The notes below the pieces were generated by a model that had not been told where the DNA came from, made no database searches, and saw only the letters and a list, made by a program, of their open reading frames with translations. From Agrobacterium tumefaciens (GTDB lineage: Bacteria > Pseudomonadota > Alphaproteobacteria > Rhizobiales > Rhizobiaceae): a stretch of DNA of 64,000 nucleotides. Positions 35,695 through 37,907 of the stretch are shown here, one piece after another (position 1 is the stretch's first letter; every line of letters begins with the position of its first letter). The translations under genes and the position numbers were made by a program. The stretch spans positions 1,798,001 to 1,862,000 of the forward strand of contig NZ_CP115841.1 in the NCBI RefSeq assembly GCF_013318015.2, read 5' to 3'.

Positions 35695-37545
35695 TTACTC
35701 GGCAGCCGCTTCCGCCTCGTGGTCGGCGATGAAGCCGCCGGACTGGCGCCGCCATAGATCGGCATAGATACCTCCCATCGCCGCCAGTTCCGCATGGCTG
35801 CCCGATTCCACGATCTGGCCCTTGTCGAGGATGATGAGCCGGTCCATTTCGGTCAGCGTCGACAGACGGTGGGCGATCGCGATAACCGTCTTGCCTTCCA
35901 TCAGCGAGAACAGGTTTTCCTGAATCGCCGCCTCGACTTCCGAGTCGAGCGCCGAGGTCGCTTCATCAAGCACCAGGATCGGCGCGTTCTTGAGGAACAC
36001 GCGAGCAATGGCGATACGCTGACGCTGGCCACCGGACAGCTTTACACCGCGTTCGCCCACCTGGGCATCAAGGCCCTGGCGGCCATGCATATCGACAAGC
36101 GTTTCCACAAAGTCCCAGGCATTCGCCCGCTTTGCCGCCGCGATCACCTGCTCGTCGGTGGCCTCGGGATGGCCATAGGCGATGTTGTCGCGGATCGAAC
36201 GGTGCAGCAGCGAAGTATCCTGCGTCACCACACCAATCAACTCGCGCAGGCTGTCCTGCGACACCTTGGAGATGTCCTGCCCGTCGATGGTGATCTTGCC
36301 CGCTTCCAGATCGTAGAAACGCAGAAGCAGGTTCATCAGCGTTGTCTTGCCCGCACCGGAACGCCCGACCAAACCGACCTTCTCGCCCGACTTGATATCC
36401 AGCGTCAGCCCGTCGATCACGCCCTTGTTCTTGCCGTAGTGGAAGCGGACGTTATCATAACGGATCGCGCCCTGCGGTGCCGCAAGCTGCGGCGCCTTCG
36501 GAGCATCGACGATATCGTGCGGCTTCGTCATCATCGACATGCCGTCATAGACGGTGCCGATGTTTTCGAACAGCGAGGTGACTTCCCACATGATCCATTG
36601 CGACATGCCGTTGACGCGCATGGCAAGGCTTATGGCAATGGCAACCGAGCCGGCCGTGACCGAACCCTGCATCCAGAAATAAAGACCGAGCGAGGCCGTG
36701 GAAAACAGCACGACCGCATTGTTGAGGTCGATCAGGATGTTGAAGCCGGAAATCTTGCGCATCTGGCGGTGAACGGTTCCGAGAAACACGTTCATCCCCT
36801 CACGCGCATATCTTTCCTCGCGGCCCGCATGCGAAAACAGCTTGATCGTCGAGATGTTTGTATAGCTGTCGACAATACGCCCCGTCATCATCGAGCGCGC
36901 ATCTGCCTGCTCCTGCGCGAGCCGGCCGAGTTTCGGCACAAAATAGGTGAGGATACCCATATAGATGCCGAGCCACACCAGCAGCGGAATGACCAGCCGC
37001 CAGTCTGCGGCCGCAACCATGAACAGCATCGAGACGACGAAGCTGATAGCGTAGACGAACACGTCGATCACCTTCAGCGCCACTTCGCGGATCGCCAGTG
37101 CCGTCTGCATCACCTTGGTCGAAACCCGGCCTGCAAATTCGTTGGCGAAAAAGTTCATGGAGTGGCGCAGCAGGAAACGATGCATCTTCCAGCGCGCGAT
37201 CATGCCGAAATTGCCGGCAAGCGTCTGGTGCATCGTCATGGTGTGGATAGCGCCCATCAGTGGCAGCAGGAAGAGCACCAGCCCAGCCATGACCATCAGA
37301 TGCCAGCCCTCATCGGCAAAAAACGTCTCGCGATTGGCCGTGGAAAGCCAGTCAACGATGCTGCCGAGGAATTTGTAGAGCATGGCTTCCGCAACGGCGA
37401 TGCCCATGGACATCAGGCCGAGCAGCAGGAGCCACGGCCATGCGGGCTGCACATAATGCCACACGAACGGCAAAAGCTTCTTCGGCGGCACAGACGGCGC
37501 CGAAGAGGGAAAAGGGTCAAGGCGTTTTTCAAACCAGCCAAACAT
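35695..37545 (-). CDS. ABC transporter half-exporter (fused permease-ATPase), first of a pair
   Basis: A 616-residue MsbA/LmrA-type half-exporter: membrane domain (about 45-330), ATPase domain with Walker A GRSGAGKTT, VTQDTSLLHRSIRDNIAYG, signature LSGGQRQRIAIARVFL, Walker B ILVLDEATSALD and AIAHRLS. The start at 37545 (MFGWFEKRLDPFP) has GGAG about ten bases upstream. About 150 bases before it, on the same strand, a candidate 18-residue leader peptide (37697-37753) and two hairpins suggest ribosome-mediated control, as known for Bacillus BmrCD. The paralogous partner follows downstream. Substrate unknown. Confidence 0.9.
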   Translation of the reverse strand: MFGWFEKRLDPFPSSAPSVPPKKLLPFVWHYVQPAWPWLLLLGLMSMGIAVAEAMLYKFLGSIVDWLSTANRETFFADEGWHLMVMAGLVLFLLPLMGAIHTMTMHQTLAGNFGMIARWKMHRFLLRHSMNFFANEFAGRVSTKVMQTALAIREVALKVIDVFVYAISFVVSMLFMVAAADWRLVIPLLVWLGIYMGILTYFVPKLGRLAQEQADARSMMTGRIVDSYTNISTIKLFSHAGREERYAREGMNVFLGTVHRQMRKISGFNILIDLNNAVVLFSTASLGLYFWMQGSVTAGSVAIAISLAMRVNGMSQWIMWEVTSLFENIGTVYDGMSMMTKPHDIVDAPKAPQLAAPQGAIRYDNVRFHYGKNKGVIDGLTLDIKSGEKVGLVGRSGAGKTTLMNLLLRFYDLEAGKITIDGQDISKVSQDSLRELIGVVTQDTSLLHRSIRDNIAYGHPEATDEQVIAAAKRANAWDFVETLVDMHGRQGLDAQVGERGVKLSGGQRQRIAIARVFLKNAPILVLDEATSALDSEVEAAIQENLFSLMEGKTVIAIAHRLSTLTEMDRLIILDKGQIVESGSHAELAAMGGIYADLWRRQSGGFIADHEAEAAAE

Positions 37546-37583
37546 AGGCCAAGCTCCGGCAAGCAATCGCCCCATCGTGAAAC

Positions 37584-37608
37584 GTGAGCAAACGCAAATA
37601 TGGCTCAC
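37584..37608 (-). promoter_or_regulatory. Hairpin in the leader of the ABC exporter mRNA
   Basis: GTGAGC (37584-37589) pairs with GCTCAC (37603-37608) across 13 bases, lying about 40 bases upstream of the ABC start. It could take part in an attenuation switch with the leader peptide region; no energy calculation was possible here. Confidence 0.35.
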
Positions 37609-37668
37609 GACGGAACAGAAAAGTATTGGATATGGCCGCAACAGCCACATGACGAGTCAAACTATGGG

Positions 37669-37686
37669 AAACGCGGTCGAACCGCG
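37669..37686 (-). terminator. Possible attenuator hairpin after the leader peptide
   Basis: CGCGGT (37672-37677), a three-base loop and ACCGCG (37681-37686). On the minus strand it is followed by TTTCCC, so the T-tract is short and termination would be weak. It lies 10 bases after the leader peptide stop codon, the place expected for an attenuator. Confidence 0.4.
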
Positions 37687-37696
37687 GGGGTAACAC

Positions 37697-37753
37697 CTAG
37701 GCCAGCAGCAGCACTACTGGGGCCGGGAGGCGAATACGAATGTCATTTTGCAT
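37697..37753 (-). CDS. Candidate regulatory leader peptide upstream of the ABC exporter pair
   Basis: An 18-codon frame, ATG at 37753 to TAG at 37697, encoding MQNDIRIRLPAPVVLLLA. A strong GGGAGG lies five bases before the ATG. Arg6-Ile7-Arg8-Leu9-Pro10 aligns position for position with R6-L7-R8-F9-P10 of ErmDL, whose R-x-R motif makes macrolide-bound ribosomes stall (established knowledge). Three consecutive CTG Leu codons follow. The Shine-Dalgarno GGGAGG (37759-37764) is complementary to CCTCCC inside codons 8-10 (37725-37730), so translation and RNA folding are interlinked. An 18-codon frame alone could occur by chance; the ribosome-binding site, motif and exporter context are what make it notable. 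Confidence 0.55.
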   Translation of the reverse strand: MQNDIRIRLPAPVVLLLA

Positions 37754-37870
37754 CAGAACCTCCCTAGCTGGTGTTGAAGATGTCGCCTTGTAGCGCAAAA
37801 ATTAATCGTTGACCAGCCGCAAAGATGCCGAACGCGTCAGAAAAGCTCTCGATTGCGACCGATTCTGCCG

Positions 37871-37907
37871 AACGGGCGGAGAAGACCCGGCAAAGGTCTC
37901 CGCCCGT
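37871..37907. repeat. Strong inverted repeat after the metallophosphoesterase remnant
   Basis: AACGGGCGGAG-A-AGACC (37871-37887) pairs with GGTCTCCGCCCGTT (ending 37907) around a CGGCAAA loop, with one to two bulged bases. There is no T-tract on either strand. Confidence 0.55.

Follow-up and report, generated by a model that had tools for sequence, protein, structure and literature searches.

What does an 18-codon reading frame do when it stands, with a ribosome-binding sequence of its own, ahead of a pair of ATP-binding cassette (ABC) exporter genes? The question is raised by a locus of Agrobacterium tumefaciens in a stretch of 64,000 nucleotides (nt) of contig NZ_CP115841.1 (positions 1,798,001 to 1,862,000), hereafter the window, whose numbering is used throughout; the leader and the exporter genes lie on its minus strand. 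A sequence-only reading of the window had proposed a macrolide-sensing attenuator with a peptide resembling ErmDL. In our analysis, the evidence moderately favours a translated upstream open reading frame (uORF) whose RNA, more than its peptide, would be the working part of an attenuator of the ABC pair. The 18-codon gene is probably a switch that senses slowed protein synthesis.

The leader open reading frame (ORF), MQNDIRIRLPAPVVLLLA, runs from ATG to TAG at 37753-37697 and is preceded by a GGGAGG Shine-Dalgarno (SD) sequence (37759-37764); 151 nt separate its stop from the ATG (37545) of the first ABC gene. Frame, SD and a gap of about 150 bases are real, as the sequence-only reading had stated, and so is the complementarity of this SD to codons 8-10. 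There, GCCTCCC (37725-37731) spells Arg-Leu-Pro and forms the 3′ strand of a helix, P2, of which the SD is the 5′ strand. An outer stem, P1, joins AACACC (37770-37775) to GGTGTT (37692-37697), the latter starting on the final base of the stop codon, and hairpin P3 (CCAG..CTGG, 37702-37720) covers codons 12-17. With the SD:codon helix and the outer stem, the leader is embedded in an RNA fold which a translating ribosome must disturb, again as had been claimed. Stem-loops had also been reported between leader and gene. We find three: H1 (CGCGGT-TCG-ACCGCG, 37672-37686), 10 nt past the leader stop, H2 (TGGCTG-TTG-CGGCCA, 37633-37647), which is kept in Agrobacterium, and H3 (GTGAGC..GCTCAC, 37584-37608), which is found in part of Agrobacterium only.

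Loss of the frame at orthologous loci had been named beforehand as an outcome that would speak against the proposed attenuator; the frame was conserved in the window and in all 80 fetched loci. At least 583 relatives of the first ABC protein were confirmed, and the best 80 loci were kept, giving 81 leaders together with the window, 41 of them non-redundant. By title, 69 of the 80 loci belong to Rhizobiaceae or to genera such as Agrobacterium, Rhizobium, Sinorhizobium/Ensifer and Martelella, nine to a Rhizobiales or Hyphomicrobiales bacterium, one to Proteobacteria and one to a metagenome-assembled genome titled Pleomorphomonas. ATG, SD and a leader of 16-22 codons were present in 79/80 loci under a GGAG/GAGG rule and in 80/80 when GGGGG was allowed (locus L046). 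Thus, all 81 leaders retained ATG, SD and stop, and the stop was 119-187 nt (median 148) from the ABC start. The leader-ORF filter was passed by 41/41 non-redundant upstream regions, compared with, on average, 0.015 of the dinucleotide-shuffled ones; since the rows had been gathered with the same filter, the fair claim is only that no fetched locus needed discarding once a GGGGG SD was allowed.

Within the genus of the window, a DNA match to the leader region was detected in 38 of 39 genomes, its own genome counted; G025 was the sole genome without it. In an order-wide draw, the ABC protein was found at E 1e-120 in 107/150 genomes. Among 30 loci from this draw, the leader was present in the window's own locus (L112) and in one of the same family (L113). 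No similar leader frame was detected in the remaining 28, including three called to the same family (L117, L119 and L130), and nine of these 28 held another SD-preceded small frame. The leader is therefore a property of a Rhizobium/Agrobacterium/Sinorhizobium-like group and not of the order. In addition, in 3/3 genomes of another family of the order (loci L123, L124 and L126 of genomes G098, G135 and G050), the same ABC gene is preceded by an unrelated 18-codon frame (MRIRFGCYPPGIPRMRAA or MKIRLGCFSPRIPRMRAA), whose stop is 194-206 nt away from it. By eye, the predicted folds of L123 and L124 appear to pair the SD of this frame with codons (GGCATCCC) and to enclose it in an outer stem. This frame was not accepted as homologous to the leader.

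Pairing of the SD was concentrated in one part of the frame. An SD helix of at least 5 base pairs (bp) could be formed within codons 7-12 in 34/41 non-redundant leaders, compared with 5/41 for codons 2-7 and 11/41 for codons 13-18. Codons 8-10 (CGC CTC CCG) are the conserved part, and the third base of codon 8 was C in 83% of the 81 leaders. Two Martelella leaders (L077 and L079) illustrate a sequence swap: their SD is GGAGC, and GCTCC occurs in codons spelling V-L-R or L-L-L. Minimum-energy folds paired the SD to codons 7-13 in 30/41 leaders (3.6 expected from dinucleotide shuffles) and contained the outer stem P1 in 33/41 (17.1 expected).

Covariation was counted per clade because a MAFFT alignment of all genera misplaces the SD. 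For Agrobacterium, the analysis covered 29 distinct sequences, the five helices P1, P2, P3, H1 and H2, and 500 shuffles. Overall, 95.1% of cells were paired, and slid structures reached at most 54.6%, a comparison in which the structure is favoured over its slid versions by having been drawn on the window sequence. Cells with two-sided changes numbered 25 versus 8.2 in shuffles, and the covariation score was matched by 0/500. Pairing amounted to 96.6% of cells in P1, 94.1% in P2, 90.2% in H1, where two pairs had two-sided changes, and 100% in H2, where changes were one-sided only; at one of the four P3 pairs, 10/29 sequences changed both sides. For Rhizobium (25 distinct sequences, 500 shuffles), 80.5% of cells were paired, two-sided cells numbered 19 versus 9.9 and the covariation score was again matched by 0/500, with a count of types that was not above shuffles (410/500 as high). 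Here the outer stem is made of AATCGCC upstream of the SD and GGCGAT near the frame end (74.5% of cells); P2 was paired in 93.6% of cells and a hairpin enclosing the stop codon in 77.4%. The pairings covary in Agrobacterium and, less cleanly, in Rhizobium.

Covariation in two clades also speaks for a structured regulatory RNA that binds a ligand or a protein and carries the ORF incidentally. We consider such an RNA very unlikely at this locus, given the intact ATG, SD and stop in every leader and the lengths of 16-22 codons. Moreover, Rfam returned 0 matches up to E 10 for positions 37500-37900 and none across the whole window at gathering scores, though absence from Rfam does not exclude this explanation.

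The same leaders allow the peptide to be judged. The window leader does contain R6-x-R8-hydrophobic-P10, and Arg6-Leu7-Arg8 of ErmDL is confirmed by PMC8298421; the sequence-only reading accordingly supposed that the nascent R6-x-R8 arrests drug-bound ribosomes and that the exporter genes are thereby opened. The leader peptides are varied (for example, MTVLMLTRLPRVTRPFLA, MDMTVLSRLRQSDIRLA and MDLFGISRQPRFMAVAA), and across the 81 leaders Arg-x-Arg at codons 6-8 was not generally conserved. R6 and R8 occurred jointly in 15/81 (8/41 non-redundant) and R-x-R-hydrophobic-P in 8/81, and in 3/74 outside Agrobacterium. Codons 2-5 vary too, and in the part of PMC8298421 used here, ErmDL changed from MTHSMRLR to MDTLNRLR shows alleviated arrest with both drugs, so that the +X+ motif is not sufficient and R-x-R requires a permissive N-terminus. 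R8-L9-P10, furthermore, is largely spelled by SD-complementary codons. On the other side, Arg at codon 6 was common (13/41 non-redundant leaders), and the +X+ motif is described as dispensable for erythromycin (PMC8298421), which weakens the motif-loss argument for that drug; a leader lacking R-x-R may still be a peptide that arrests with erythromycin. As a conserved mechanism, the macrolide-specific ErmDL reading is disfavoured, and we regard it as quite unlikely.

Peptide selection within Agrobacterium was assessed on 25 distinct leaders of 36 read, using 287 of 300 pairs. R6 was Arg in 22 of the 25 with its third base varying, codons 2-5 and 7 changed residue, and codons 8-11 were nearly frozen as nucleotides. 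The case illustrates how RNA pairing can, as a by-product, yield what looks like a peptide arrest motif (RLP after R), and the natural variation of the 81 leaders makes the question of RNA versus peptide directly testable.

How a leader of this kind could act is suggested by a mutant-tested case in Sinorhizobium meliloti. In the part of PMC12218461 on which we draw, duf1127_1 is controlled by a 29-codon uORF (sORF26), whose C-rich codons 3, 5, 9 and 10 must be accessible for attenuation. Masking of these codons was proposed to result from a ribosome held at the start or from pairing with the ribosome-binding site (RBS). The RNA, not the peptide, matters, and both tetracycline and chloramphenicol are inducers. 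Scanning for the uORF by the residues named in that part of the paper gave nothing in strict form and, in loose form, S. meliloti locus L157, where the uORF lies on the reverse strand from about 1164: AGAGGAGGCGTAAG ATG AAT TCC AAT CTC GTG TTT GTG CGC CTC. Its start is 249 nt and its stop 159 nt upstream of the DUF1127 gene, matching the distances in PMC12218461, and C-richness falls on the expected codons, 3, 5, 9 and 10. Codons 9-10, CGCCTC, are the complement of its SD, GAGGCG.

The S. meliloti ABC leader has a similar arrangement (GGAGGCATGC ATG, 18 nt, CGC CTC) and ends 157 nt before its gene. A pattern search (SD-ATG-CGCCTC) in the S. meliloti-like genome G202 gave 15 places versus 4 for a reversed control. 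The frames at these places were the ABC leader (18 codons) and the duf1127 uORF (29), together with three short ones of 2-11 codons, single frames of 48 and 60 codons and eight that were longer still. The ABC leader and the duf1127 uORF were the only frames of 12-45 codons, located 158 and 159 nt before the next frame. In the window's own genome, the same pattern occurred at 9 places versus 1 for the control, with 12-45-codon frames only at the leader and at L205 (16 codons). L205 was rejected, as the sizeable gene candidate behind it sits on the opposite strand.

The sequences themselves show the frame, its position, the complementarity and the covariation; by this analogy, we infer translation of the leader, termination, its polarity and its inducer. 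The leader SD can pair with C-rich codons 8-10, and the outer stem can close around the frame. Normal translation would expose the C-rich codons, and transcription would stop before the gene. A ribosome stuck at or near the leader start would keep the C-rich stretch masked, allowing RNA polymerase to enter the exporter genes; if no ribosome arrived, SD:codon pairing would mask the same stretch, again giving read-through. The operon would then answer impaired translation in general and not one macrolide. The drug-inducible attenuator of the sequence-only reading is retained in its conserved leader and in a layout like that of the drug-responsive duf1127 uORF; its ErmDL-like R-x-R arrest as a conserved sensor is not. 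Codons 8-13 are rich in C (0.44, compared with 0.25 for G) and the stretch +15..+30 past the stop is G-poor (0.12), a composition that would suit a Rho-type stop. No intrinsic terminator was scored between the window leader and the ABC gene, H1 included; the tail of H1 is TTTCCC (37666-37671), without a classical U-run, and the single terminator-like match near the leader overlaps the ABC start and is within chance.

The opposite polarity could arise from the leader's 3′ end. The stop codon lies in the loop of a hairpin of at least 5 bp in 14/41 non-redundant leaders (3.8 expected) and in 31/81 overall, and 8 of these 14 then show at least five T in the next 10 bases. In Rhizobium, the pairs of the stop-codon hairpin include two-sided changes. 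In an intrinsic attenuator of this type, a ribosome at the leader stop would block the terminator-like hairpin, and the exporter would need leader translation. We judge such an arrangement unlikely: in the window, the hairpin follows the stop by 10 nt and did not score as a terminator, and duf1127 has the other polarity (PMC12218461). The Rhizobium hairpin nevertheless suggests that the terminating part differs between genera. Tentatively, as something possible rather than probable, the Rhizobiaceae may share a class of uORF switch (an SD paired with its own CGCCTC-type codons 8-10) placed as a general translation-stress sensor before unrelated genes such as an ABC exporter or duf1127; in Rhizobium proper it may have been rebuilt so that a terminator-like hairpin carries the stop codon in its loop and read-through is decided by the terminating ribosome itself. 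Leader genes have also been proposed to increase downstream expression (PMC4833913), and a non-regulatory ORF could do no more than help ribosomes to load or stabilise the mRNA. An SD:codon helix inside the leader and a gap of 119-187 nt appear ill-suited to simple coupling, and this explanation is highly improbable in our view.

Whether such an operon responds to drugs can be approached through S. meliloti. SM2011_RS23660 ranks among the 30 genes most strongly induced by tetracycline and heads, as the first large gene, an operon for ABC-type multidrug transport; sORF3 and sORF55, small ORFs from the ribosome profiling (Ribo-seq) study PMC10117765, lie upstream of it (PMC12218461). This operon resembles the leader's operon in being a tetracycline-induced ABC-type multidrug operon with upstream small ORFs; its mechanism is not analysed in PMC12218461. 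In the S. meliloti leader, one SD serves two ATGs 4 bases apart, which open 18-codon and overlapping 55-codon frames, the first ATG being that of the 55-codon frame (L080 2783-2998 and other Sinorhizobium loci). Two ATGs behind one SD would fit two small ORFs, and the frame MTVLMLTRLPRV.. is a candidate for sORF3. At these Sinorhizobium loci (L080 and others), TTCCTTCA just upstream of the ABC start can pair with TGAAGG at the ABC SD.

The position of SM2011_RS23660 was estimated with a locus-tag ruler, on the assumptions that G202 is colinear with strain 2011, that tags are evenly spaced and that the exporter belongs to the ABC_membrane type. In PMC10117765, as far as it is used here, RS31025 is L32 and RS25125 a small cold shock protein. 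The leader region of G202 is 99% identical to that of S. meliloti 4H41, and the leader lies at 1.894 Mb; on the same contig, L32 is at 3.297 Mb and single-domain cold shock genes are at 1.976, 2.103, 2.155 and 2.409 Mb. A two-domain cold shock gene at 1.774 Mb (197-codon frame) was rejected as RS25125, being too long for the listed small protein. Depending on the choice of RS25125, SM2011_RS23660 is predicted near 1.65, 1.81, 1.87 or 2.19 Mb. Seven of 14 G202 ABC_membrane matches are on this contig; two of them are the exporter pair and the other places are at 0.121, 1.131, 2.816, 3.019 and 3.312 Mb, so that, whichever cold shock gene is chosen, the leader's operon lies nearest. From locus-tag spacing only, SM2011_RS23660 is likely to be the ortholog of the leader's operon, with its identity unproven.

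Several observations weigh against an RNA-based attenuator as proposed here. The unproven identity of SM2011_RS23660 with the ortholog is one of them, and the rise under tetracycline could reflect general mRNA stabilisation or position effects, as raised in the part of PMC12218461 used here. At the level of structure, codons 7-12 hold no 5-bp SD helix in 7/41 leaders, 11/41 minimum-energy folds (kept in all counts) lack SD:codon pairing, and overall folding energy is merely slightly low (mean z -0.87). Pairs with two-sided changes numbered 5 versus 3.5 in Agrobacterium (48/500 shuffles as high) and 4 versus 3.7 in Rhizobium (342/500 as high). Swapping SD and ORF across clades gave marginal results, with p 0.052 for helix length and z -2.1 for duplex energies of both P2 and P1 (84 and 117 of 5000 permutations, respectively). 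The terminator-like hairpin of Rhizobium could give the opposite polarity. As for the precedent, residue 17 of the L157 uORF is V, where PMC12218461 names a T17/Stop mutant, with C11 and A15 in agreement; nor does the computed minimum-energy fold of L157 contain the duf1127 SD:codon helix. Finally, the ratio of nonsynonymous to synonymous rates (dN/dS) in Agrobacterium was 0.57 as a ratio of means and 0.70 as a median, and V13, L16 and A18 are kept despite third-base changes. Together with R6, these residues leave room for a minor peptide role in Agrobacterium.

Around these elements, the window holds the first ABC half-exporter gene (35695-37545), which starts MFGWFEKR and has a GGAG SD at 37554-37557, and the second (33466 to about 35334, start approximate). 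Both match MsbA/HlyB-type exporter models, with no NCBIfam family reaching its cut-off for either gene among the best 25 of 187 families each; ABCB-type exporters were the top PDB relatives of the first ABC protein among the best 60 of 151. Downstream of the pair are reading frames which, by eye from their sequences, we take to be petA-, petB- and petC-like. No classical sigma-70 promoter was found around the window leader. A conserved block, GCGCTACAAGGCG (37784-37796), is a candidate -10 region by its conservation, without a sigma-70 consensus match, and would set the 5′ end about 30 nt upstream of the leader ATG. Elsewhere in the window, a 35-codon frame on the plus strand (239-346) holds a 9-bp complement of its SD region in its early codons (G-U allowed) and is the sole other such frame listed in the window scan.

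Our literature search found no paper naming the leader, the sentence on SM2011_RS23660 aside, within a coverage that leaves out most subscription journals and preprints. If the proposed mechanism is true, attenuation by an RBS and C-rich codons, described only recently, would gain another case that is widely conserved, tied to an exporter with a possible role in how bacteria of soil and plants cope with ribosome-targeting compounds.

Among known systems, ErmDL shares Arg6-x-Arg8 with the window leader at the same codons (PMC8298421). It differs in that its arrest, ahead of ermD, depends on the peptide, whereas the motif is not conserved in the ABC leader family. Bacillus subtilis BmrB is likewise a leader ORF ahead of an ABC exporter pair, and drug induction of BmrC/BmrD needs its translation (PMC4191407). 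However, it belongs to a Firmicute and is a 53-codon ORF with a terminator inside, and the sections of PMC4191407 used here describe no SD:codon fold. The duf1127 uORF is the nearest known system: its SD, too, is the complement of C-rich CGCCTC codons (9-10, compared with 8-10 in the ABC leader), in S. meliloti both uORFs stop 157-159 nt ahead of their genes, and the bacterial family is the same. It has 29 codons, compared with 16-22 for the ABC leader, and a different downstream gene; the outer stem P1 of the ABC leader is not seen in the L157 fold, and the duf1127 mechanism has been tested experimentally, whereas the ABC leader is known here from sequence. The leader thus belongs to a kind known from one studied case in the same family, duf1127, and, functionally, from Bacillus BmrB.

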